Shown here: positions 8,754 to 40,055 of the stretch, in pieces | Numbering within the stretch: the stretch's first letter is position 1 | Layout: the number at the start of each line of letters is the position of its first letter | Virus record (IMG/VR): IMGVR_UViG_3300024520_000185 | Coordinates: 1 to 40,055 of that record | Source: a virus | Length of the DNA: 40,055 nucleotides | Reading direction: 5' to 3' (one strand) | Position numbers and translations under genes: made by a program | Notes under the pieces: model-generated | The model's database searches: none | Told to the model about the DNA's origin: nothing | What the model saw: only the letters and a program-made list of their open reading frames with translations

Positions 8754-8937
8754 TTTCGATCTCCTGTTTAGACTTCTCCCTCATGTGGGTAGAAATATTA
8801 CTTTCCATAATGATATCATCACTAGCTCTATTCATGTCTTTTTCCAAACACTCAACGCGCTCTTCCAAACACTCAACGCGCTCTAAGAGCTCGCCAACCA
8901 CTATGACAACTTTCTCTAGTGATCCTAGCCTTTCCAT
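8650..8937 (-). CDS. Coiled-coil small protein, unknown
   Basis: A 95-residue protein that overlaps the stop of the RecE-like gene by 13 bp. Its first 40 residues form a clear coiled coil containing a tandem heptad repeat (ERVECLE twice). The DNA repeat behind it spans 8859-8882. The C-terminal part is charged and overlaps the lipoprotein gene by 104 bp. There is no transmembrane helix, so despite the Rz/Rz1-like overlap it is not a normal inner spanin. Confidence 0.6.
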   Translation of the reverse strand: MERLGSLEKVVIVVGELLERVECLEERVECLEKDMNRASDDIIMESNISTHMREKSKQEIENVNKKFESHVAWCSCTMPELREERRERDSEGSAS

Positions 8938-12315: not shown

Positions 12316-12360
12316 ACTGCTAGGAGAGTGGGAGTTCCTGTTCTCTACTCTTCTAGTGGT
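12316..12360. terminator. Long hairpin between convergent genes
   Basis: Arms 12316-12332 and 12344-12360 pair over about 17 bp with several G-U pairs, around an 11-base loop. The hairpin sits between the plus-strand nuclease gene and the minus-strand 85-aa gene, overlapping the end of the latter. There is no strong U-tract on either side, so a two-way terminator or an RNA end-protecting hairpin are both possible. Confidence 0.5.
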
Positions 12361-12602
12361 TCCTTCATTACATCTTTAAATAATTTATAACTTTCTACCC
12401 GATCAACCAGACTATACTCCTTTTTGGGGTAGTGTAGTTGCTGCCAAATGGCATAAATGGCATCCATGGCATCGAACATATCAGCATATTCGTCTAAACC
12501 ATCTTGTTCCCAAAGCTCTAAAAATGAATCAATTAAGTATGTGATGCGAGCTTCTACTGGGTCAAATTCTTCAGTATGAATTATCTCGAATACTTTCGCC
12601 AT
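12345..12602 (-). CDS. Small acidic protein, solitary gene, predicted leaderless mRNA
   Basis: An 85-residue, strongly acidic protein with few basic residues, helical and rich in aromatic and Asp/Glu (for example WEQDGLDEYADMFDAMDAIY). Its charge and length resemble DNA-mimic inhibitors, but no family is recognised. There is no ribosome site; a perfect TATAAT ends six bases before its ATG. It stands alone on the minus strand between the replication module and the Lys-rich cluster. This isolation and private promoter are typical of accessory anti-host genes. Confidence 0.65.
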   Translation of the reverse strand: MAKVFEIIHTEEFDPVEARITYLIDSFLELWEQDGLDEYADMFDAMDAIYAIWQQLHYPKKEYSLVDRVESYKLFKDVMKEPLEE

Positions 12603-12608
12603 AGGTTA

Positions 12609-12614
12609 ATTATA
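12609..12614 (-). promoter_or_regulatory. Consensus -10 box, predicted leaderless start for 85-aa gene
   Basis: TATAAT on the minus strand, ending six bases before the ATG at 12602. No good -35 stands 17 bp away, so an activator may be needed. An AGGTTA box (12603-12608) fills the six-base gap. Confidence 0.45.
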
Positions 12615-12701
12615 CGCATTAAATCCAAAATTAATGTGAACAAATTTACCCAAGGTTATTGTATATAGGTTATGACGCGGAGAAGCTGGCATTTACTAAA
12701 C

Positions 12702-12730
12702 TTTACTTGAGGTAATTCCCGTGATAAAAT
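12702..12730 (+). promoter_or_regulatory. Sigma70-like promoter of the Lys-rich gene cluster
   Basis: -35 TTTACT (12702-12707), 17-bp spacer, -10 TAAAAT (12725-12730). It points to the five Lys-rich genes and would leave a leader of about 165 bases. AGGTTA-type boxes flank it on both sides. Confidence 0.55.
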
Positions 12731-12904
12731 ATTCTTTTAAATCTTCTTATATAACCTTTTATAACAAATTACAGTAATATATCATCCGTTTTTACCGTAA
12801 CGAAGTGAAGGGAAAAATGTATACTAACGGTAAGTACCTAATTCTTTAAGTTTTGTACTTATTGCACAGTTTTTATTTATCAAGTGATACTCAAGGGAAT
12901 AATT

Positions 12905-13183
12905 ATGTCTAAAAAAAGTCAGATCCACGCTTTAAAAACAGGCAGAACAAAAAGAAACTCAAGTAAACACAATCATCACGCTGCCGAGATGGTTCGGTTG
13001 ACCGAGGAACTATACAACGGGAGAAAGAAACCTGATTATCTAGAGAGTGACTTGAGGGGTAGTGCTATGAGGAAGATGAAACTTGCAGGTTTTAAGGTTA
13101 CTGATGAAACCCATAAATCCAAAACGTCTTTAAGGGAGCAAAAATCTATTATGAAAGGTAATAGTTACAAGGGTAAAAAGTAA
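12905..13183 (+). CDS. Lys/His-rich basic protein 1 of cluster
   Basis: A 92-residue protein. The start at 12905 follows AAGGGA by about eight bases; an upstream in-frame start at 12884 lacks a site. It is basic throughout, with a His-rich patch (SKHNHHAAEM) and no hydrophobic helix. It is the first of five plus-strand genes joined mostly by TAATG overlaps. Composition suggests nucleic-acid binding or packaging in the virion. I recognise no family. Confidence 0.65.
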   Translation: MSKKSQIHALKTGRTKRNSSKHNHHAAEMVRLTEELYNGRKKPDYLESDLRGSAMRKMKLAGFKVTDETHKSKTSLREQKSIMKGNSYKGKK

Positions 13184-13620
13184 TGCCAAGTAGAACTCCT
13201 TCATCAGCTAGACTAGCCGCCGCCGCTGCAATGGCTGTCAGGATGCTGGGGAAGCTCAAAAGAAAGCCAGAGAAATATCCCAATCCTAACGCAAGGATGG
13301 CAGAAGTTGTGAAACGAATGGTTAAGAATAAAAACAAAAAGACAAAAATTGAAAACAAGAGAATATCTAAAGAGCCAAAAATCAAAGTAAATAAAACAGA
13401 AGCAAGGAAACATTCAAAAAACTGGAAATCAAAGAATAAGAAAATGTCTAAAGAAGCAAAGAAAGTTGACAGGGATTACTCTAAAGCCGCAACATTTCCA
13501 GGTAAAAAAGTATTTAAAAAGATAATGACCAGGAAAGCTATAGAAACCCTAGAGGAAGCACCAATTGGTAAAGCAATTATAAATTCTCTGAGTAGCAAGA
13601 AAAACAAGGATAAAAAGTAA
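13183..13620 (+). CDS. Lys-rich protein 2 with N-terminal Ala helix
   Basis: A 145-residue protein, about one third Lys plus Arg. Residues 8-24 form an Ala-rich amphipathic helix (ARLAAAAAMAVRMLGKL), followed by a long Lys-rich tail with KKNKDKK at the end. Helix plus tail is like the 125-aa virion-region protein at 38145. It is coupled by TAATG to both neighbours. Histone-like DNA compaction or membrane binding are both plausible; neither is shown. Confidence 0.65.
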   Translation: MPSRTPSSARLAAAAAMAVRMLGKLKRKPEKYPNPNARMAEVVKRMVKNKNKKTKIENKRISKEPKIKVNKTEARKHSKNWKSKNKKMSKEAKKVDRDYSKAATFPGKKVFKKIMTRKAIETLEEAPIGKAIINSLSSKKNKDKK

Positions 13621-13889
13621 TGGCAATGTATAAAAGTACTTCAAAAGATGGGAAAATGACTCACTTTGCTGCCGAAATAGAATTAAAAGCACCTAAAAAA
13701 GTTAAAAAGAAAGCCAAGAAAAGAAGCTCCCCCAATCGTGCTATGACTGAAAAGAAAAGGGTAGCCGAGAACAAACGCCTAAACGCTAGAGAAGATAGGG
13801 CGAAGGCTTATAGCGAGGCATCTAATGAAAAAAAAGCCGCTATGATATATAAAAGTATGACAGCATTACGTGAAGGCGAAGGTTTATAG
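13620..13889 (+). CDS. Lys-rich protein 3
   Basis: An 89-residue protein whose central part is almost pure basic (KKVKKKAKKRSS). It then has an Arg/Glu/Ala helical stretch. Its 3' end holds both copies of a 34-bp direct repeat (13799-13832, 13875-13908); the first encodes KAYSEASNEKK, the second forms this gene's stop and the next gene's start. Coupled upstream by TAATG. Function unknown. Confidence 0.6.
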   Translation: MAMYKSTSKDGKMTHFAAEIELKAPKKVKKKAKKRSSPNRAMTEKKRVAENKRLNAREDRAKAYSEASNEKKAAMIYKSMTALREGEGL

Positions 13890-13908
13890 CGAGGCATTTA
13901 ATGAAAAA
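13799..13908 (+). repeat. 34-bp direct repeat pair with two mismatches
   Basis: Copies at 13799-13832 and 13875-13908, start-to-start 76 bp, differ at two positions only. The first is read as protein; the second spans the stop of one gene and the ATG of the next. A local duplication seems to have supplied a new gene start. Confidence 0.8.
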
Positions 13909-14311
13909 GGGTAGAAAAGTGAAAAATAGAGAAAAAGTAACATCAAAGAACAGCAAAAAATTCTATAAAGAAATGGCTCTAAAGATGCTAGACGATCCGT
14001 ATGGTTCGAGAGAATCCAAGCATAATGCTGAACAAGAGTTGTCTGACAATGAGTGGGAGGGTGTTCATAGAGGTCTAAAGAAAACCATTGAGAAGAGATC
14101 GCAAAGCCTTAAAGGCTCTATGAAAAAATGGAAAGCTGATAGGAAGAACCAAACAGATGAAGAGGCAAAGAAAACTCTCAAGAAATTTAAAGACCATAAT
14201 TTGAAAACATATAAACTTAAAAGACTGTATCAAGACGAATCAAGCTCTGAAGAATATGACGATATGAAAGCCAGACAATACGAAAGAAAGAGTAAAAGGA
14301 AAGGGGTTTAA
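13901..14311 (+). CDS. Lys-rich protein 4, shares GVHR motif with virion protein
   Basis: A 136-residue protein, basic with acidic interludes. EGVHRGLKKTIEK near residues 53-65, followed by a Lys-rich helix with KGSMKKW, resembles KGVHRAFKRKIG in the 125-aa protein at 38145. The start is set by the second copy of the 34-bp repeat and has no strong ribosome site. The shared motif suggests that this cluster and the late basic proteins are related. Confidence 0.65.
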   Translation: MKKGRKVKNREKVTSKNSKKFYKEMALKMLDDPYGSRESKHNAEQELSDNEWEGVHRGLKKTIEKRSQSLKGSMKKWKADRKNQTDEEAKKTLKKFKDHNLKTYKLKRLYQDESSSEEYDDMKARQYERKSKRKGV

Positions 14312-14520
14312 TGAAATCTAAATATGGTATAACCAAGCAGGAGCTAGAAGATTATGAAGGATCATTTAATGATGGGTTCTATCATCGACCAAATATTAGA
14401 AGGGCTAAAGACCTAGATGCTTGGGAGAAGAAAGTTGCTGTCGAGATGATGAAGGCTCGTAAGAAAAAGAACGCAGCCGCCACTGGCGGGAAAAAAGAAA
14501 AGAAAAGGCTTTTAAGATAA
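14311..14520 (+). CDS. Small basic protein 5, end of cluster
   Basis: A 69-residue protein coupled by TAATG to the previous gene. The first half is mixed and aromatic, the second Lys-rich (ending KKEKKRLLR). Its 3' end overlaps the convergent nuclease gene by 9 bp. Function unknown; same composition class as its four neighbours. Confidence 0.6.
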   Translation: MKSKYGITKQELEDYEGSFNDGFYHRPNIRRAKDLDAWEKKVAVEMMKARKKKNAAATGGKKEKKRLLR

Positions 14521-14889
14521 AAGTTTTAACGCTTCAAAATTATCTCTATATTTACTAAACTTTGACCGGGGGTTAACGGTCAGTGAGATCTCATTCTTGC
14601 CCAGACCATACTGACCAGGAATAAACCAGAAGCCACTCGGAGTGATAACCATAAAAAAATCAATCTCACTATAGTTATATGGAAGAGCAACCCGATAAGT
14701 TAGAAACTTCCTCGGCTTGGTTGATGTGGTGTATTTGCATTGGATCTTATAAAAGATATTATCTTTCTCGGCTATCAGGTCATAGTCGCAAGGAGCATAA
14801 GGAAAAGAAATATTGTAGCCTTGGCGCAAAAGCTTTGCCCCAGTTTCAAGCTCAGAAGAATAACCCTTTTGATTGGTAGTTAATTCCAT
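14512..14889 (-). CDS. Small PD-(D/E)XK endonuclease-like protein (QxK type)
   Basis: A 125-residue protein. KGYSSELETGAKLL gives E13, CDYDLIA gives D35/D37, and KIQCKY gives Q50 and K52. This E-D-QxK pattern is that of the short PD-(D/E)XK endonuclease families found alone in phages and in some homing or resolvase enzymes. It has no Shine-Dalgarno and a -10 box six bases before its ATG. Solitary, oppositely oriented to the Lys-rich cluster, it looks like accessory cargo. Confidence 0.65.
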   Translation of the reverse strand: MELTTNQKGYSSELETGAKLLRQGYNISFPYAPCDYDLIAEKDNIFYKIQCKYTTSTKPRKFLTYRVALPYNYSEIDFFMVITPSGFWFIPGQYGLGKNEISLTVNPRSKFSKYRDNFEALKLLS

Positions 14890-14895
14890 TGAAAA

Positions 14896-14924
14896 AGTAT
14901 AACCGAAGATGCGAGATTCCTCAA
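14896..14924 (-). promoter_or_regulatory. Sigma70-like promoter giving a predicted leaderless mRNA for the nuclease
   Basis: Minus strand: -35 TTGAGG (14919-14924), 17 bp, -10 TATACT (14896-14901), then exactly six bases to the ATG at 14889. The -35 sits in the loop of a small hairpin (CGAGGATT with AATCTCG) that could end the upstream operon. Confidence 0.55.
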
Positions 14925-14939
14925 ATCCTCGGCATACTG

Positions 14940-15206
14940 TTATGCGTCAATCTCTATGATTTTGACAGTATCGAATAGGCATTGGAGTAGAAAGACTTTT
15001 TCTTTCCCAATTGATCCAAATATCCTCAAGCCTAGCAGGTAAGTAAAGAACTCCGCTTGCAATGGGCAAATGAAATTCCATCTGGTGTTGGGGTGCTTTT
15101 TGTGCGGTCTTAGCTTTATCACAGAAAAATATTCCTGGAAGCGTTCATCTGTTGCTAAGGTCACCGCTCTATTAAATTTTTTAACTGGAACGTAAATCTG
15201 TGGCAT
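14940..15206 (-). CDS. Small basic protein, unknown
   Basis: An 88-residue protein beginning MPQIYVPVKKF, coupled by TAATG to the gene upstream. It has basic and aromatic residues and a modestly hydrophobic C-terminal half. It is the last gene of the long minus-strand operon. No motif recognised. Confidence 0.65.
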   Translation of the reverse strand: MPQIYVPVKKFNRAVTLATDERFQEYFSVIKLRPHKKHPNTRWNFICPLQAEFFTYLLGLRIFGSIGKEKVFLLQCLFDTVKIIEIDA

Positions 15207-15385
15207 TAAAGCCTCTCGTCGTTATCGTGCCACATTTCCAACCTCAGCAACTTCTCGGCATATTTGATCTTGTCAGTTAGCAACCCAACTTCCAGGTAAT
15301 CGTTTTGCTCATCGGCAACGGCTAACTCGTTTCTCATTGAGTTAACCCATTCCATTAAATTTTCCACTCCTGATTTAAAATTCAT
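15206..15385 (-). CDS. Small helical protein, 59 aa, unknown
   Basis: The ATG at 15385 follows GGGAGG and is preferred to an in-frame start at 15400. The protein is helical and acidic with a central coiled-coil pattern. Coupled downstream by TAATG. Function unknown. Confidence 0.6.
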   Translation of the reverse strand: MNFKSGVENLMEWVNSMRNELAVADEQNDYLEVGLLTDKIKYAEKLLRLEMWHDNDERL

Positions 15386-15386
15386 C

Positions 15387-15695
15387 TTAAAACCTCCCAT
15401 TGGTGTAATCGGTTAATCTGGTGTCGGTAAAATTCCTAATTCTCTTTAGTGAGCCAGCTATCAATTGGGAATCAAACTTAACTCCAGTTTCTAGCATATC
15501 AATTAAGCCATCTAGCTTGCCCAAGGTTTGATCTTTACTGTCAATCGAAGCAACTAGTGCATCAATGTACATTAGCTCCTTAGAAGCTCTCTCAGAGCGA
15601 CCAATCTTACCCAGGCATTCCTTATGCTCAGTCATGTGACTATCTGAGTCAAAGTATTCCCCGCACTTATAGCACCTAACCATTTCTTGGCTCAT
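15387..15695 (-). CDS. Zinc-finger small protein
   Basis: A 102-residue protein. CYKCGEYFDSDSHMTEHKEC near residues 8-27 gives C-x2-C-x9-H-x3-H-x2-C, a C2H2-like zinc finger. The rest is a helical domain with leucines at heptad spacing. It overlaps the upstream gene by ATGA. DNA binding or protein contact are possible; its early position suits a regulator, but no target site is evident. Confidence 0.65.
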   Translation of the reverse strand: MSQEMVRCYKCGEYFDSDSHMTEHKECLGKIGRSERASKELMYIDALVASIDSKDQTLGKLDGLIDMLETGVKFDSQLIAGSLKRIRNFTDTRLTDYTNGRF

Positions 15696-15901
15696 AGCGT
15701 TAACTCCTTATCTTGTAGCCTCATGTATTCTGTTAATAAAAATTCATCGTCACCATTGTAGGTTAGGACCTTGAATCTCCAAGTCATCTCACTGTAAGTT
15801 TGCTCCAATTCGCTGTTAGACATATTATTAATATCTTCGCAGATCATGTTAATAACATCTTCTCGGTCAATGTAGTCGGCTTTTTTGTATCGTAGTGGCA
15901 T
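15692..15901 (-). CDS. Small acidic protein, unknown
   Basis: A 69-residue, acidic, helical protein beginning MPLRYKKADYIDRED. AGGAG lies eight bases upstream. A short spacer with a GCGG/CCGC hairpin (around 15925-15938) separates it from the gene above. Function unknown. Confidence 0.6.
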   Translation of the reverse strand: MPLRYKKADYIDREDVINMICEDINNMSNSELEQTYSEMTWRFKVLTYNGDDEFLLTEYMRLQDKELTL

Positions 15902-15946
15902 AGCGTTAAGCTCCTATTCTTATTGCGGATAATCCCGCATCTTGAC

Positions 15947-15991
15947 TTATTTTGTTACCTTTACGTAAGTTAAAATTATTTCTTTGGACAT
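15947..15991 (-). CDS. Possible 14-codon microgene
   Basis: The ATG overlaps the upstream stop (TAATG) and GAGGTG lies five bases before it. The peptide would be MSKEIILTYVKVTK. The ribosome site is good, but 14 residues may simply be a coupling device. Low confidence. Confidence 0.25.
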   Translation of the reverse strand: MSKEIILTYVKVTK

Positions 15992-16293
15992 TATAGCACC
16001 TCGCGTTGAACATTATTATTATATGCTGTGTTTTGCTCTTTCTTAATTGATTCCAGTGCGGATAAATTCGCCTTTTTAAATAACTCTTTTTTTAAAGCAC
16101 CTTCCATGGAGTCTAGTGCGATTGAAAAATCTTCAGTGGTTTCGATGTATTCAAAGTGACAAAATTTATCATTAGCATGTTCTAAGGTGTCTCTGATCTT
16201 GGCTAAAACGTCACAGTATTCCGCGACTTCTTTGTAGTGGGTTCTAGTGATATCCAAGTCGCTTAATATTGTCTTATCTCCGGTGTATCTCAT
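15991..16293 (-). CDS. Small acidic protein, unknown
   Basis: A 100-residue protein. The ATG at 16293 is chosen over the GTG at 16302 because AGGAGA directly abuts the latter. It is acidic, helical, with Cys, His and aromatic residues in the middle (EYCDVL, KFCHFEY). It belongs to the coupled early operon. No family recognised. Confidence 0.65.
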   Translation of the reverse strand: MRYTGDKTILSDLDITRTHYKEVAEYCDVLAKIRDTLEHANDKFCHFEYIETTEDFSIALDSMEGALKKELFKKANLSALESIKKEQNTAYNNNVQREVL

Positions 16294-16294
16294 T

Positions 16295-16438
16295 TTAATC
16301 ACTCTCCTTTAACGCAGTTTCCCATTCTAAAACTATACGCTTGTTTAGTTCTGTTTCTTCTTCCTTTTCACCTCTGGCAGCGCGCTCGTTATGCAAACGC
16401 GCCATTTCTAAAGCCCAGACATGACTTATTTTTTCCAT
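16295..16438 (-). CDS. Micro-protein, 47 aa, unknown
   Basis: A 47-codon frame beginning MEKISHVWALEM, whose ATG overlaps the stop of the gene above (TAATG). Its 3' end carries the ribosome site of the next gene. It is charged and helical (Glu/Arg/Lys). It fills an otherwise empty 134-bp gap in a fully coupled operon, which supports it. Confidence 0.6.
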   Translation of the reverse strand: MEKISHVWALEMARLHNERAARGEKEEETELNKRIVLEWETALKESD

Positions 16439-16773
16439 TAAGAAAGATGATGGGAAGTGCCACAATGACCACTCCCCTCCGCTAATGACTTGCCAATTAT
16501 CCAGGTAAACGCTGGATGAACCATTTCAATTGATTCCTTGCGCTCCTGATCGTAGTCAATGAACCACTTGCCCTTCCTCTGCGCCACCTTGTAACCCCAG
16601 GGGAGAAGATCATTTATGCAAGTTTTGGTGTGATTGGTCTTAAAAGCCCCTCGGTTAATTGTCACCTTGTCGCCTGTCTGGATAAATATTTTGGTATCAT
16701 ATAACCTGGCACTGATATACCTGGGATCATCACCAACTATAACTTTTAACCCTTTTCTGTTTTTTAACTCCAC
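16438..16773 (-). CDS. Basic protein, unknown
   Basis: A 111-residue protein starting with GTG at 16773, with GGGAGG five bases upstream. It overlaps the preceding gene by 10 bp. The first 80 residues are beta-like with basic surface (GDKVTINRGAFKTNHTK), perhaps a small OB or SH3-like barrel. The C-terminus has a His/Cys/Gly-rich end. Function unknown. Confidence 0.6.
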   Translation of the reverse strand: MELKNRKGLKVIVGDDPRYISARLYDTKIFIQTGDKVTINRGAFKTNHTKTCINDLLPWGYKVAQRKGKWFIDYDQERKESIEMVHPAFTWIIGKSLAEGSGHCGTSHHLS

Positions 16774-16970
16774 GACTGCCTCCCTTCCCAGAATTTAAGC
16801 CCTAGTAAAACTTCAGTGACAGTTAAAGCCACTAAATGCTGATTCTTGCTAACGAATGTTAGAAAGTTAATTAGATCCTTCTTACTTGATTTAAGTAGCG
16901 CAACATAATTAGCTTGTCTGTTGCCGTTTTTGATTGATGTACAAATTTCCATCATTGACTCATTTTTCAT
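16764..16970 (-). CDS. Small basic helical protein, unknown
   Basis: A 68-residue protein beginning MKNESMMEICTS, coupled by TAATG to the gene above. It is Lys/Asn/Leu-rich and predicted helical, with no membrane segment. Function unknown. Confidence 0.6.
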   Translation of the reverse strand: MKNESMMEICTSIKNGNRQANYVALLKSSKKDLINFLTFVSKNQHLVALTVTEVLLGLKFWEGRQSWS

Positions 16971-17158
16971 TATTCCCCCTCAAAGATGCAATTTTCTTCT
17001 TCTATAGCATCAGCAAATGTTTGGTATTGTGTTTCATTGAATTGATAAAATAGTTCCAAGGTACAGCGATCAACCGTGAACCTATCGTTATATAGTGGCT
17101 CAACATTCATCACCATATCAATTAGTGCGCTGTCGTTACATTCTCTTAGATCTTCCAT
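16970..17158 (-). CDS. Small acidic protein, unknown
   Basis: A 62-residue acidic protein beginning MEDLRECND. GAGGAG lies eight bases before its ATG at 17158, which overlaps the stop of the 54-aa gene above. Contains three Cys, not in a clear zinc pattern. Function unknown. Confidence 0.6.
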   Translation of the reverse strand: MEDLRECNDSALIDMVMNVEPLYNDRFTVDRCTLELFYQFNETQYQTFADAIEEENCIFEGE

Positions 17159-17322
17159 TAATAATTCTCCTCTAGTGACTCGCCAGCATAACTAGCATCG
17201 TAGTAGTCATCTTGTTTATATTTATCTTGAAAACATTTGTCACACATACGCCCGCAGTAGATCCCATAATGATCGTCTTGGGGTTCAGCTTGACCTCTTC
17301 CACACTCACATTGATCTCCCAT
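17158..17322 (-). CDS. Cys-rich micro-protein, 54 aa, possible zinc binder
   Basis: A 54-codon frame beginning MGDQCECGRG. GGGAGAG lies seven bases upstream of the ATG at 17322, and the stop overlaps the next start. It has CEC near the N-terminus and CGRMCDKC at residues 23-30, a plausible zinc knuckle, then an acidic Tyr/Asp-rich tail. It is too short for most gene callers but has every sign of translation. Confidence 0.65.
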   Translation of the reverse strand: MGDQCECGRGQAEPQDDHYGIYCGRMCDKCFQDKYKQDDYYDASYAGESLEENY

Positions 17323-17323
17323 G

Positions 17324-17413
17324 TTACTTCTCTCCCATTGTAAATTCGACGAATAAATGCGCCGAGATAATGCTAATTGTTGATAAAACCATAATCATAA
17401 TAATAGTAAACAC
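17324..17413 (-). CDS. Membrane micro-protein, 29 aa
   Basis: A 29-codon frame with a GTG start at 17413 and TAGGAGG five bases before it. Nearly the whole length is one hydrophobic helix (FTIIMIMVLSTISIISAHLF) with a short polar end. Its stop is one base from the ATG of the 54-aa gene. A single-span peptide of this size could act on the host membrane. The strong ribosome site makes chance unlikely. Confidence 0.55.
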   Translation of the reverse strand: MFTIIMIMVLSTISIISAHLFVEFTMGEK

Positions 17414-17422
17414 TGTCACCTC

Positions 17423-17977
17423 CTAAGCGGTTAAATTATAAAACTTCTGCCAATTGCAGTAGTCATTGTTAAATTGGTCTAAGTCGGCTCTAAATCTGGT
17501 CATATCGTAAGTTTTAAACCAGTACGTTGTAGCTGGGAAGCTATGGTCATCGTCGCCTAGCTCCTTTACATGCACTTCGAATAACTCTCCATCTATGACC
17601 TTATAGCGAGTCTTATCGGCTTCTGTGAAATTGTCGATCAAAGACTTGATAAACTTACTGCCACCGTCATGATCTTTATGGTCAATTTTAACCAAATATG
17701 TCTCAGTTTCCCCGGTGTGGGTTCCAGCCTCAATTTTCTCCAATAGTGATAATACTTTAAATCCCATCTCTTCAATCTCCGGTTCTTCATTGTATCGGGC
17801 TAATTCCCGCGCTTCTTGTTCATCGTCTTTCTTTCTTTGCTTCTCCCATATAAGGGATTCTAATTCCTCGGCATCATAATCAATGCCATTTTCACCAACG
17901 CAATTGCTCTCCTGAATCAATATTAGTCGAGCAAGTGAAGTATATTTAGAGGGTGAATTTACGCTCATTTTGTTCAT
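17423..17977 (-). CDS. Acidic protein, 184 aa, unknown
   Basis: The ATG at 17977 overlaps the stop of the 57-aa gene above (TAATG). The protein is acidic, with a charged helical region near residues 38-70 (rich in Glu, Lys, Arg) and a C-terminal half that looks alpha/beta, ending in an aromatic stretch. It is the largest product of this early operon. No motif recognised. Confidence 0.65.
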   Translation of the reverse strand: MNKMSVNSPSKYTSLARLILIQESNCVGENGIDYDAEELESLIWEKQRKKDDEQEARELARYNEEPEIEEMGFKVLSLLEKIEAGTHTGETETYLVKIDHKDHDGGSKFIKSLIDNFTEADKTRYKVIDGELFEVHVKELGDDDHSFPATTYWFKTYDMTRFRADLDQFNNDYCNWQKFYNLTA

Positions 17978-18150
17978 TATTTAGCCCACAATGTAATATA
18001 TTTGCGAGTATTGATATTCTTGAAAGAGTATCCTCTCCCTGGGTTACTTGCCATAAACATCCACTTGCCAGCATACATATTGCTACTGGGATCAATGCTT
18101 AATTCTCCGCAAGCGATTAAAAGTTTGAATACTTCTTGTGCTGATTTCAT
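17977..18150 (-). CDS. Small protein, 57 aa, unknown
   Basis: A 57-codon frame beginning MKSAQEVFKL, with TTGGAGGTCACA before its ATG at 18150. The same leader form (TTGGAGGTAACA) precedes the 76-aa gene upstream. Basic C-terminus (SFKNINTRKYITLWAK). It is coupled to the 184-aa gene. Function unknown. Confidence 0.65.
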   Translation of the reverse strand: MKSAQEVFKLLIACGELSIDPSSNMYAGKWMFMASNPGRGYSFKNINTRKYITLWAK

Positions 18151-18181
18151 GCTGTGACCTCCAAAGTCATAAAGTTAATAA

Positions 18182-18209
18182 ATCAGGAGAAGCGTCAACC
18201 TCTCCCGAT
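18182..18209 (-). terminator. Stem-loop between two early genes, possible attenuator
   Basis: Arms 18182-18190 and 18201-18209 form nine base pairs (one G-U) around a ten-base loop, just after the stop of the 76-aa gene. The minus-strand sequence after it is TTATTAACTTT, only partly U-rich. It could lower expression of the rest of the operon. Confidence 0.45.
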
Positions 18210-18217
18210 TGATAACC

Positions 18218-18448
18218 CTAAGACTGAGAATTGACAGCGTGAAGGTGATATTCAGCAGCAGTTAAGTTGCCGTCTACTGCCTTCATATAGCCAAGAATAT
18301 GAACCAATTCATCAGCACTGACTTCTACAAATTTACCCTTTGAAAGCTCAGCGTATTTGTGTAGTTGACCTATAAGGATTTCTGCTGCTCTTCTGTTCTT
18401 CTCAGCTTTGATTGTTGCGGTTAGTGCTAGTTTGATTGATTTTGTCAT
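18218..18448 (-). CDS. First gene of early operon, small helical protein
   Basis: A 76-residue protein with TTGGAGG well placed before its ATG at 18448. It is the first gene downstream of the divergent promoter region and is followed by a stem-loop, so it may be the most abundant early product. The N-terminal half is basic and helical, the rest mixed with several His. No family recognised. Confidence 0.7.
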   Translation of the reverse strand: MTKSIKLALTATIKAEKNRRAAEILIGQLHKYAELSKGKFVEVSADELVHILGYMKAVDGNLTAAEYHLHAVNSQS

Positions 18449-19025: not shown

Positions 19026-19100
19026 AGGGAGTTCGTTTAATTGGTAAGATGGTAGCCTGTCACGCTATTGCTGCGGGTTCGAGCCCCGTACTCCCTGCCA
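19026..19100 (+). tRNA. tRNA-Asp (anticodon GTC)
   Basis: A full cloverleaf with CCA encoded. Acceptor AGGGAGT (19026-19032) pairs with ACTCCCT (19090-19096). The D arm carries GG in an eight-base loop. Anticodon stem GTAGC/GCTAT holds the loop CTGTCAC, anticodon GTC. A four-base variable loop precedes T-arm GCGGG/CCCGT with loop TTCGAGC; discriminator G, then CCA at 19098-19100. It would read both Asp codons. Confidence 0.93.
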
Positions 19101-25324: not shown

Positions 25325-26551
25325 ATGTCTACTTTTAGTTTAACAACTGCACAAAATCTATTTAAGATTAATTATTACAAAAAGTCTGAGAATATGTATA
25401 ACTCAGCAAACGTACTTCTTGGTCGTATCAAGAAGAAATATGACTTCACTGGTCGTCAACGGTTTGTAGCAACTCCCCTAAGTTTTTCTGGTGGTGTTGG
25501 TTCAGGAACTTTGCCTACTGCTGGTGTCGCAACTTACTCCGATGCTTTAATCCTTTCAAAGAAAGTATACGCTGTATGCCAAATTGATCGTGAATCAATT
25601 AAAGCTTCTAGTGATGACAAGGGCGCTTTCGTAAGAGCTACCAAAGAAACAGTACAGAAATGTGTTGAATCTTATATGCGAAATGCTTCACGTATCCTTT
25701 TTGGTAACGGTGATGGTTCACTAGGTACTGGCGATGCTGCTGAAGCTGATACTCCTGTACTTGGTACTGGTGGCTCTGGTGATCCGTACATCGTTGCAAT
25801 GGCAGCTAGTACCTTTAAAGAAGCCAACTGGGAAGAGAATGACATTGTAAATCTTGATGCTGAGACTACTGCGCTAACTGTTGTTGCTGTTGTACCTGCT
25901 ACCTCCACTGTTCACTTTGAAGGTTCTTCTGTACTTTTAGCTGATGATGCCGCTGCTGTAGCGAACTCAACTTCTGAAATCTTTTATATGCAAGGTTCTA
26001 AAGACAATGATCCTCAAGGTCTTAAAGGTGTTCTAGATGCCACAAGTGGTACTCTTTATAACATTAGTGTTGCAAGACGCTGGCAATCAACACGAGTTGA
26101 TGGTTCTGCCTCCAACGTAACTGAAGACAAGATGAATGAAGTTATGCTTTCTGTTGAACGAAAGTTTGGTAAAGCACCTAACTTGATCGTTTGCTCTTAT
26201 GCTCAGTATAGAAAGATTATGCTTTTATTTGAGAGTCTTAAGCGCTACAGCATCAGCCCACGAGATAAACAACTTAAAGGTAAAGTTTCTTTCAGTGGTT
26301 TAGAGTTTATGTCAACACGTGGACCTATCGGGATCTTTCCTGAGCGTTTTTGTGAAGACGATAGAATCTACTTCTTAAATGACAACTTCATTGAATGTCA
26401 TCACCGCCCAGGATTTGGTTGGTTTGACGATGATGGAACTGTCTTTTTAAGAAAAGATGGCATCGATGAGTATGAAGCGAGATATGGTGGCTATTTGCAA
26501 AACTATATTACGCCTAGTGCCCACGGTGTATTATATAACTTAACAAGTTAG
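25325..26551 (+). CDS. Major capsid protein
   Basis: A 408-residue protein following the scaffold, with GGAGG eight bases before its ATG. It begins with a helical N-arm, has a conserved E-loop-like region, and ends with YLQNYITPSAHGVLYNLTS. Residues about 147-222 look like an inserted beta-domain (GTGGSGDPYIVAM, then GSSVLLADDAAA). A similar pattern is seen in the tail adaptor at 33025. HK97-type fold is inferred. A hairpin follows the gene, as often happens after highly expressed capsid genes. Confidence 0.85.
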   Translation: MSTFSLTTAQNLFKINYYKKSENMYNSANVLLGRIKKKYDFTGRQRFVATPLSFSGGVGSGTLPTAGVATYSDALILSKKVYAVCQIDRESIKASSDDKGAFVRATKETVQKCVESYMRNASRILFGNGDGSLGTGDAAEADTPVLGTGGSGDPYIVAMAASTFKEANWEENDIVNLDAETTALTVVAVVPATSTVHFEGSSVLLADDAAAVANSTSEIFYMQGSKDNDPQGLKGVLDATSGTLYNISVARRWQSTRVDGSASNVTEDKMNEVMLSVERKFGKAPNLIVCSYAQYRKIMLLFESLKRYSISPRDKQLKGKVSFSGLEFMSTRGPIGIFPERFCEDDRIYFLNDNFIECHHRPGFGWFDDDGTVFLRKDGIDEYEARYGGYLQNYITPSAHGVLYNLTS

Positions 26552-32573: not shown

Positions 32574-32807
32574 ATGACAGAGGAAGATTACGACAAGAAA
32601 AAAGCAGCTAAAGATAAGAAGGGTGCAGTTGCTTCGGCAGCAGGAACCGCTGGGGTTGCCGCCGCAGAAATGATTATTAAAGAACGAGCTAGAAGGCAAA
32701 AGAGAAAGCTAGAAGCTATTCAATACGAAAAGAAAAAAAAGCAAGAGGGTTATGCAAATAAGTCTGCTGCTATTAGTAAGCTTTTCAAAAACAGTAGCAT
32801 AGGATGA
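32574..32807 (+). CDS. Small Lys/Ala-rich basic protein, virion region
   Basis: A 77-residue protein with AGGAGAAAT upstream. An Ala/Gly-rich hydrophobic stretch (VASAAGTAGVAAAEMII) stands between two Lys-rich ends. It is coupled by ATGA to the next gene. The composition is that of small internal or ejected proteins. No family recognised. Confidence 0.6.
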   Translation: MTEEDYDKKKAAKDKKGAVASAAGTAGVAAAEMIIKERARRQKRKLEAIQYEKKKKQEGYANKSAAISKLFKNSSIG

Positions 32808-33028
32808 GTGCCGGAGCCGCCACGATGGCACCTGCCGCTATAAAAGCTATCAACGATGCCATGATAAAATCGGCTAAGATGGCTAATGACGAGAAGGTAC
32901 GAATAGAAAACGAAAAGAGGCTCGCTGCAATGAGACTAAGTGAAGAAAAACAAATTGGAGCACAGAACCAGCAACGAGCTATCGATATGCTTCTTAAACA
33001 TAGAATACAAAAAAGGGCTGTTGGATGA
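32804..33028 (+). CDS. Small Ala/Lys helical protein, virion region
   Basis: A 74-residue protein starting in an ATGA overlap and ending in another one with the adaptor gene. Helical, Ala/Met-rich N-terminus and Lys/Arg/Gln-rich C-terminus. With the 77-aa gene it forms a coupled pair just before the tail machine. Role unknown; an internal virion or assembly factor is plausible. Confidence 0.6.
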   Translation: MSAGAATMAPAAIKAINDAMIKSAKMANDEKVRIENEKRLAAMRLSEEKQIGAQNQQRAIDMLLKHRIQKRAVG

Positions 33029-37916: not shown

Positions 37917-38135
37917 ATGGCACGAAAGAAAAAACATTTAAAAGAAGGGTTTAAAAAATTCAAGAACTCTCTTAACTCTGATGCTGTTACAGACAGTGAA
38001 ATGGAAGAATCTAAGATGCAGGCTAAAATGTTCAAGGGTATCAAGAGCATGAATGATGGCGCTGTTAAAGATGGTGACATGAAAAAGCATATGAAGAAGA
38101 AAACACTCAAGAAAAAAATGAGTAAACACTTATAG
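37917..38135 (+). CDS. Small Lys-rich protein, virion region
   Basis: A 72-residue protein with Lys and Met as main residues (ends KKKTLKKKMSKHL). AAGGAG lies upstream of its ATG. It belongs to the internal virion protein block and is composed like the Lys-rich cluster at 12905-14520. It may bind packaged DNA. Function unknown. Confidence 0.6.
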   Translation: MARKKKHLKEGFKKFKNSLNSDAVTDSEMEESKMQAKMFKGIKSMNDGAVKDGDMKKHMKKKTLKKKMSKHL

Positions 38136-38144
38136 AGGTCTGTA

Positions 38145-38522
38145 ATGGAAGATAACGGCAGAAAACCAGCATCAATGGGAAAATTCTTAGGAGCAGCATC
38201 ACTGGCTCTTAGATTGTTAGCAAAGGGAAAGGGATTTTCCAAGGCTGCAAGAGCCGTAAAGCTTGGAAGCAAGGCTAAAAAGGTTGCCAATGTAGCTAAA
38301 AAAGCCAATTTAAAAAACCAAGGAACTAAACGATACAAAGAAGTTGGTAAGTGGAATCAGCCAACAGATAAGAGTATGAAGAAGATTGAAGAGATGAAAG
38401 GCGTACATAGAGCCTTTAAGAGAAAGATTGGGGAGTCAAAACACCCAAAAGGCAGACCTGACCTTGCCAAAAGTATGAAGGAAACAAAACTTAGAAAGAA
38501 ATTAGTTAAACACAAAGAATAG
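38145..38522 (+). CDS. Basic virion-region protein with Ala/Leu helix and GVHR motif
   Basis: A 125-residue protein. Residues 9-25 form an amphipathic Ala/Leu helix (MGKFLGAASLALRLLAKGK), followed by a Lys-rich tail. KGVHRAFKRKIG near 84-95 is close to EGVHRGLKKTIEK in the protein at 13901, and the N-terminal helix is like that of the protein at 13183. By place it is probably an internal virion protein. AGAGG stands before the ATG. Confidence 0.6.
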   Translation: MEDNGRKPASMGKFLGAASLALRLLAKGKGFSKAARAVKLGSKAKKVANVAKKANLKNQGTKRYKEVGKWNQPTDKSMKKIEEMKGVHRAFKRKIGESKHPKGRPDLAKSMKETKLRKKLVKHKE

Positions 38523-38530
38523 AGGTAGTA

Positions 38531-40055
38531 ATGGAAGATGAATCAACTGCTAAGTGGAAGAAACGCGTTTCTGAGCTTAAATGGAAGAGAAGGCTTGAGT
38601 CATTAGCTAATGAGAAGAGGGTTAAGGGGTTCACTAAAAGAACCGCTGGGCTTAAGCGTAGGCTAGAGTCTGATGAGAATATATCGGAGCTTGAAGCACA
38701 AGAGGCTGCTCCAACTAAGAAATGGAATGATCGCTTAAACGAGCTATCTGTAGATAATTCTTATGTTGTTCAAGATCGCGAAGGTCAACCACAAAACCTG
38801 CAAAGTATGTTGTCAGGGTTGCCAACTGCCGAACAAGAAGATCTTGTCTCTGCTAATCGTGAAGCTCCTGCTCCTGCAACGCTTAAAGAGAGACTTGCTG
38901 GTATACAAAAAGATCTAGCTCCTGCCGCTCCAGATCAACCACTGTTACCTCAACCAGGATCAGTAGAAGAAAGGATTAAGAACAAAGAAGCTAATTCTAA
39001 AAGTATTAAACTTGATATAATACCCAAGGGTGATATCGCTGCTGCGCCAGTTATCCCTAAAGTTGGATCGGGTAATAAAACTGAATCTGGTGATGATACA
39101 AATCAACCATCTAAAGGAGACATGAATGATACTGCTCTCAAGAATCTTGATGAGAGTGGAAGTTGGTGGGGTGCTGCTCCTGGTATCGTTGCACTACTTG
39201 GTGCTGCTACTGGTGATCGAGCGTTAGTCGCTGGGGCTGGTGCATATCAAAAATCTATCTCTGGATCAAGGAAAGCTGCTTCTCTTGCCGATGCTAAAGC
39301 TAAAGAGGGTAGATTAAATAGAGCTAATAAACTTAAGATCGCTGGTCTTAAGAAGAAAGAGGGTGACGATGGTGGTTTAGCTAAGTCTTACGCATTTCAT
39401 AATACAGGTACATCGGTTACTAAGCAGTGGACAGAGAAACAACGACTACAACAAAAAAATCCTGAAAACTGGGTAAAGACAATGTCTGCCGCAGAAAACA
39501 AGCAGATGGAGGCTTATTCAGAAGAAGTAGGTGAATACAAAGCTCGTGTTTTTGCTAGTCATGGTAAGCATCTAACTACTAGACAAACTAAAGACTTAAT
39601 AGCTTTAGAAAAGACTATATCCCAATCTCCAGATCTTAAGAAAGACATTGCTACTCTTCATGGGTTTCAACAGATGTTAGACGCAATTCCTGGAAAGAAT
39701 AAAGGGAAAACCAATAGAACATTTGATTTTAAAGCTATGACCGCATCACATGATGTTGCTTTTTTATATAAGTTTATAAGGTCACTTGATGATAACGCTG
39801 TTAGGGCATCGGAAATTGATCTAGCGGGAAAAGGAAATCCAGTTATGGATCAACTCTTCCTTTGGATCAAGAACATACGTGGGGCTGAAGGTCCAGGTGG
39901 TAAAGGCAAGAAGTGGGCAGAGAAAGAATTAAAAGGTCTGAGGGTTGGCTCATTATTTAACGAGAACAAACGTGCTGAAATGTATGTGGTTATTGCTAAA
40001 CTTGCTAAGGGATCGCAAACCAGGATGAGAAGGAAGGTTAAGAAGAAGATCGGAA
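38531..40055 (+). CDS. Internal virion protein, N-terminal part (continues at base 1)
   Basis: The frame starts at ATG 38531 (AGAGG upstream). Via the join 39920/1 it makes a 581-residue protein ending at 356. The first 60 residues are basic coiled coil; residues 60-210 are Pro/Gln/Asp-rich and probably disordered. A Gly/Ala hydrophobic stretch lies near 214-236 (WGAAPGIVALLGAATGD). The rest is helical and basic. The last bases of the window (from 40047) are adapter, not phage. An ejected DNA-transfer protein is inferred. Confidence 0.75.
   Translation, partial: MEDESTAKWKKRVSELKWKRRLESLANEKRVKGFTKRTAGLKRRLESDENISELEAQEAAPTKKWNDRLNELSVDNSYVVQDREGQPQNLQSMLSGLPTAEQEDLVSANREAPAPATLKERLAGIQKDLAPAAPDQPLLPQPGSVEERIKNKEANSKSIKLDIIPKGDIAAAPVIPKVGSGNKTESGDDTNQPSKGDMNDTALKNLDESGSWWGAAPGIVALLGAATGDRALVAGAGAYQKSISGSRKAASLADAKAKEGRLNRANKLKIAGLKKKEGDDGGLAKSYAFHNTGTSVTKQWTEKQRLQQKNPENWVKTMSAAENKQMEAYSEEVGEYKARVFASHGKHLTTRQTKDLIALEKTISQSPDLKKDIATLHGFQQMLDAIPGKNKGKTNRTFDFKAMTASHDVAFLYKFIRSLDDNAVRASEIDLAGKGNPVMDQLFLWIKNIRGAEGPGGKGKKWAEKELKGLRVGSLFNENKRAEMYVVIAKLAKGSQTRMRRKVKKKIG
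39921..40046. repeat. Terminal direct repeat (assembly overlap), right copy
   Basis: Identical to 1-126. The identity ends exactly where the adapter-like sequence begins. Confidence 0.9.
40047..40055 (+). other. Residual Illumina adapter sequence
   Basis: AGATCGGAA matches the first nine bases of the TruSeq adapter and replaces the phage sequence that follows base 126 at the other end. It is a sequencing artefact. Confidence 0.85.

Follow-up and report, generated by a model that had tools for sequence, protein, structure and literature searches.

Five tandem genes for strongly basic proteins, at positions 12905-14520 of a viral record, raise the question of whether they form a functional unit and what their products might do for the phage. 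An earlier note had described them as an accessory cassette and as a candidate for an undescribed system. We analysed the whole IMG/VR record IMGVR_UViG_3300024520_000185, hereafter the window (40,055 bases). Bases 1-126 of the window recur exactly at 39921-40046, and nine further bases, AGATCGGAA, end the record; we take these to be the beginning of a widely used Illumina adapter. The exact terminal overlap of 126 nt together with the adapter start indicates that the genome is probably a complete circle of ~39.9 kb, although the record is classed as linear. Given a circular genome, the ejection-type ORF at 38531 probably runs across the record ends. The 70 genes predicted in the window include a podovirus-like set: TerS, TerL, a portal (phrog_156), a scaffold-like protein and a major head protein (phrog_14242). 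A further protein matches phage internal virion/head-closure families. A single tRNA-Asp(GTC) gene lies just upstream of TerS (19026-19100), and a perfect 21-bp tandem repeat in two copies (8842-8884) lies within a coiled-coil-like gene on the minus strand.

The capsid protein, encoded at 25325-26551, has at least 196 relatives in IMG/VR, 80 of which we fetched, and three in MAG contigs, from Epsilonproteobacteria, Alphaproteobacteria and Bacteroidetes. A tblastn search with it against 50,697 records of named phages gave no match. A search with TerL gave 12 loci. Judging from these sequences, the phage is a member of a podovirus-like clade, and since the capsid protein has many relatives in IMG/VR and none among the named phages, we regard this clade as uncultured. 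The relatives examined below, designated by L numbers, comprise ~40 contigs, each examined over its full length or nearly so.

Layout and composition of the cassette

The cassette consists of five tandem genes on the plus strand, which is also the strand of the late genes:

12905-13183, plus strand: c1, 92 aa, 26.1% K+R, net charge +15
13183-13620, plus strand: c2, 145 aa, 31.7% K+R, net charge +34; only helices predicted, with a hydrophobic N-terminal helix at residues 8-27
13620-13889, plus strand: c3, 89 aa, 28.1% K+R, net charge +14
13901-14311, plus strand: c4, 136 aa, 30.1% K+R, net charge +18; predicted all-helical
14311-14520, plus strand: c5, 69 aa, 29.0% K+R, net charge +10; basic C-terminal tail

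Three of the four junctions are TAATG overlaps (13183, 13620 and 14311), and c3 and c4 are separated by 11 nt. A gene finder based on codon usage and trained on the long genes of this phage picked all five ORFs with high scores, and their ribosome-binding sites are mostly plausible. Hence, the ORFs, junctions and composition described earlier were all confirmed, and the statement that one protein is about a third Lys plus Arg holds for c2. The proteins have pI values of 9.9-10.8, contain 8-17% acidic residues and lack cysteine altogether. Our criterion for strongly basic genes was passed by eight of the 70 predicted genes of the window, five of them consecutive. This run of five is not due to chance (P ~1e-4 by permutation, shuffling the eight basic labels among genes of up to 250 aa). 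In relatives, just 5% of the genes of up to 250 aa encode proteins with at least 25% K+R. Structure prediction, which the earlier note had proposed for each protein, was run on c2 and c4 (AlphaFold2, single sequence) and gave only helices for both (pLDDT 77 and pTM 0.29 for c2, pLDDT 73 and pTM 0.56 for c4). A fold search with the predicted structure of c4 found no match at E ≤ 0.001.

One copy each of the five proteins carries a charge of +91, and ~100 copies each would neutralise ~11% of the phosphate charge in a 40-kb genome, a figure that speaks for the packaging reading proposed below. The charge also bears on whether the proteins compact host or replicating phage DNA in the cell, in the manner of protamines or histone H1. 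The high lysine content, the net charges of up to +34 and the pI values are what such a role would lead one to expect. However, protamines do not resemble proteins with 8-17% acidic residues and predicted helices. Furthermore, the chromosome of a few-Mb host carries ~1e7 charges, which at +91 per set would take ~1e5 copies of each protein. Compaction of host DNA, one of the roles suggested when the cassette was described, is for this reason unlikely, and we regard intracellular compaction in general as quite improbable.

The junctions between the genes contain two duplicated segments:

13167-13189, plus strand: first copy of the 23-nt junction repeat, ACAAGGGTAAAAAGTAATGCCAA, at the c1 stop/c2 start
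13604-13626, plus strand: second copy, at the c2 stop/c3 start, identical to the first at 21 of 23 positions
13799-13832, plus strand: first copy of the 34-nt repeat, within c3, 94% identical to the second
13875-13908, plus strand: second copy, containing the c3 stop, the c4 SD (GAGG) and the c4 ATG

The core of the 23-nt repeat has two matches in the window, against 0.10 expected by chance. The duplicated segments suggest that the cassette grew through local duplication. Scores for paralogy among the whole genes c1-c5 remained within the shuffled null, and an apparent likeness between c2 and c3 was rejected because it was equalled in 33 of 500 shuffles. One may then ask if the site is a functional unit at all, or a nursery of fast-evolving orphan genes produced by small duplications, each under weak selection. 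The duplications at c1/c2, c2/c3 (23 nt) and c3/c4 (34 nt) would fit the latter, as would the lack of detectable homologues and of significant paralogy between whole genes. Yet all five ORFs are intact and score as phage-like in codon usage, most of their ribosome-binding sites are plausible, and three couplings are tight, which makes a mere nursery very improbable in our view.

Flanks and occurrence in relatives

The cassette lies between two genes on the opposite strand, an acidic protein and a nuclease, both of which were confirmed as previously described:

12345-12602, minus strand: acidic protein gene, 85 aa, net charge -13, divergent from the cassette; probable conserved left-flank gene
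12603-12904, no strand: divergent intergenic region, 302 nt, 29% GC, with presumed promoters and the cassette leader
14512-14889, minus strand: PD-(D/E)XK nuclease gene, convergent with the cassette and overlapping c5 by 9 nt; PDDEXK_5 (PF11645), E 3.5e-12

The match of the nuclease to PF11645 exceeds the family cut-off, and the protein also matches phrog_5018 (E 1.3e-13). The intergenic region, common to the cassette and the divergent acidic gene, is the largest gap in the window. The proposal of a promoter and a long leader specific to the cassette is plausible in view of the gap, and gains no support from promoter-like matches, whose number upstream of the cassette (13) is at chance level (10.1 ± 3.1 in shuffles). 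The best of these sites, TTTACT-17-TAAAAT with an extended -10 (12702-12730), is not above chance either. Terminator-like matches were also at chance level (2, versus 2.7 in shuffles), no Rfam family matched the region, and the regions upstream of the cassette and of TerL have no common motif and no word of at least 9 nt in both. It is the 302-nt layout that makes a predicted promoter of the cassette's own plausible.

To the left, the gene order is p130, a DnaB/primase-helicase-like ATPase and p207 (for which no family was found), followed by the acidic gene on the opposite strand. Two relatives, L015 and L018, keep p130, the ATPase and p207 at 31-46% identity and encode an alignable acidic protein at the same place and in the same strand relation. 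The homology of the acidic proteins is weak by itself (phmmer E 0.25) and is supported by position; the gene is probably a conserved left-flank gene outside the cassette. Both relatives lack the cassette at the matching site despite having the same left flank, which indicates that the cassette is accessory, in line with its original description. None of the window genes at 14512-18448 was matched in L015 or L018. Hence, this entire interval is variable, and the insertion site can be delimited on its left side only. We also considered a toxin-antitoxin pair formed by the basic cassette and its acidic neighbour, and rejected it because L015 and L018 have the acidic gene without the cassette.

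We then come to the claim that no known family fits these proteins, which withstood all our searches. The family libraries (Pfam, PHROG and NCBIfam) gave no fit for any of c1-c5. No relatives were found by tblastn against the 50,697 phages, by iterated HMM searches of the ~40 clade contigs, or by peptide-pattern scans of IMG/VR with four of the five proteins, c1, c2, c4 and c5. A search of the relatives' genomes with c2 and c4 also gave nothing, albeit without a positive control. Close relatives carrying the cassette may exist beyond the records searched. A match of c2 to Cas11a, the small subunit of type I-A systems, was rejected: it came from PADLOC only (18.2 bits, E 6e-4), appeared composition-like and had no support from Pfam or NCBIfam, and no cas gene was recognised nearby.

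How much does this orphan status tell? The proteins of the ejection region of the window (p185, p90, k72, k125 and proteins of 508 and 834 aa) have no detectable homologue in relatives either, and genes of similar size occupy their places in the relatives inspected. Scans with the ATPase and the ejection proteins gave no new relatives. Since the phage's ejection proteins are orphans too, the orphan status of c1-c5 is weak evidence of novelty. The idea of an undescribed system is not upheld: orphans are expected in this clade, and the five proteins need not act together as one system.

Basic genes elsewhere in the phage and its clade

Strongly basic genes are not restricted to the cassette. Two adjacent ones occur in the ejection region of the window:

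37917-38135, plus strand: k72, 72 aa, net charge +13, of the same class as the cassette genes and with no detectable homology to them
38145-38522, plus strand: k125, 125 aa, net charge +28, directly before the large ejection-type gene

Their mutual resemblance (z ~5 over shuffles) indicates that k125 is possibly related to k72. In the clade set, in which some contig pieces overlap, 80 of the 2,233 predicted genes are strongly basic. In the window and the relatives examined, all runs of at least two such genes outside the cassette are in the late block:

Window, 37917-38522, plus strand: ahead of the ejection genes
L158, 11357-12513: run of four, with a 4-nt overlap between its last gene and TerS
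L158, 15266-15719: between TerL and portal
L115, 3616-4064: likewise between the TerL and portal genes
L120: ahead of the p404/stabilization genes
L083: upstream of TerS
L021: upstream of TerL

As 41% of small genes are near late genes, the chance that five independent runs are all late is 0.41^5 = ~0.012, a post hoc estimate. Single basic genes of relatives show no significant enrichment near late genes (25/50 versus 381/942, odds ratio 1.47, P 0.19) or on the late strand (P 0.54). The early blocks of relatives yielded no run of basic genes. Sequence scores between the cassette and the late-block basic genes stayed within the shuffled null, giving no homology between them. In composition, size and tandem coupling, the Lys-rich small genes of the clade (L158 11357-12513, L115 7574-8194, L083 2188-3648 and L020 17449-17679) are like those of the cassette; they differ by their location in the late block, with one run overlapping TerS, and by the lack of detectable homology to the cassette.

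We also observed that the Lys-rich genes of L158, L115 and L083 just cited lie immediately upstream of TerS and overlap it in L158 and L115. Two neighbouring ones in L158 have the motif KRYNPxxRKVE in common. A further coupled pair of small basic genes, for proteins of 77 and 74 aa, occupies 32574-33028 of the window, flanked by a tail gene and p404; L112, L120, L123 and L099 have small basic genes in comparable positions.

Since runs of basic genes in relatives abut TerS, TerL and portal, the cassette proteins might be helpers of assembly, packaging or RNA binding, whose basic tails would act on terminase, portal or mRNA instead of protecting the genome. We find this improbable. The proteins were undetected in relatives with the same terminase, portal and capsid, so they are not essential to packaging, and in this phage the cassette is not beside the terminase and portal genes.

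Another reading is that the proteins are never packaged and serve host takeover or anti-defence by binding host RNA, DNA or acidic proteins, the variable site having gathered several independent effectors. The site is indeed variable, lies beside a leftward block of small genes, and all genes to its right are unlike those of relatives; moreover, no packaging signal was seen in c1-c5. A precedent in style is TifA, by which T4 inhibits the toxin ToxN: like the cassette proteins it is small and accessory, and positive residues cluster in its centre (PMC9391042). On the other hand, a single composition common to all five proteins would be odd for unrelated effectors, basic runs are missing from the early blocks of relatives, and the models of defence systems gave no match beyond the weak Cas11a one. 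This reading is possible, and on balance somewhat unlikely.

A proposed role in the virion

The cassette is a real and unusual accessory operon, for which we propose a mechanism by analogy with the internal proteins of T4. The packaged DNA of that phage contains about a thousand small internal proteins, whose lysines contact phosphates and which are then injected; a type IV restriction enzyme is inhibited by one of them, IPI*, and phages differ in their set of internal proteins (PMC3012670). Ip1-3 inhibit distinct type IV restriction enzymes and are encoded by three genes in two loci (PMC12373910). The internal proteins are highly diverse and non-essential (PMC3012670, PMC12373910). The cassette proteins are likewise several, small, Lys-rich, variable and accessory, and the window also has basic genes at more than one locus.

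Our preferred reading is that c1-c5 are DNA-associated proteins that would be packaged and injected, acting like T4 internal proteins without implying membership of that family. The cassette would be an accessory operon for small, helical, lysine-rich nucleic-acid-binding proteins. These would be made late in infection, packaged with the genome through electrostatic binding of lysines to DNA phosphates, and injected together with it; acting jointly, they might then protect the DNA on its entry or block a first-response defence of the host. We favour packaging because all other basic runs in the clade set are found in the late block; the coupled run of five beyond chance, the strand in common with the late genes and the accessory placement also speak for it. 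The reading remains tentative, somewhat short of an even chance, because these runs speak for it and the tests on single genes gave no enrichment. The location of the cassette counts against packaging, as it is ~5.8 kb from TerL and adjoins leftward, probably early genes. So do the negative results for a motif in common with the TerL upstream region, for homology to the late-block basic genes and for a common N-terminal targeting sequence. Among the three roles originally suggested, that of internal virion proteins encoded at a second locus is therefore the best supported, by the late-block runs and not by the single basic genes.

The analogy with T4 has clear limits. T4 internal proteins have an N-terminal capsid-targeting sequence, whereas by inspection c1-c5 have no common one (MSKKSQ, MPSRTP, MAMYKS, MKKGRK and MKSKYG); because of this, we do not file the cassette under T4 internal proteins, to which c1-c5 also have no sequence match. 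No prohead protease was noticed among the window genes scanned, which were part of the gene set. Preceding the capsid gene is one for an acidic, scaffold-like protein (phrog_3927, E 0.004). A bolder version, which we hold to be unlikely, is that five co-made and mutually unrelated lysine-rich proteins form a detachable DNA-coating layer in a small podovirus-like virion. This layer would parallel the T4 internal proteins independently, would do without targeting and proteolysis of the T4 type, and would be encoded outside the late operon. If the proteins are packaged, they would show that injected sets of basic proteins are not peculiar to T4 and also occur repeatedly among small podovirus-like phages whose bacterial hosts are uncultured; such sets could then be sought by composition and coupling in cases where sequence search fails. 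If they are not, c1-c5 would be candidates for new proteins with a host-directed or anti-defence action.

Finally, relatives of this phage encode DUF6321 proteins (PF19846), which like the cassette proteins are small, Lys-rich phage proteins. The model finds the genes of relatives and differs in giving no match to c1-c5 at E ≤ 1. A literature search yielded nothing useful on DUF6321 or on lysine-rich proteins of virions. DUF6321 proteins, or proteins very like them, are encoded in L148 (7302-7601), L157 (2642-2956) and L145 (12432-12686), and in L148 and L157 these genes adjoin an ejection-type gene of ~720 aa. The domain also occurs at the C-terminus of larger proteins in several PHROGs (phrog_727 and phrog_3477), hinting at a role in the virion.
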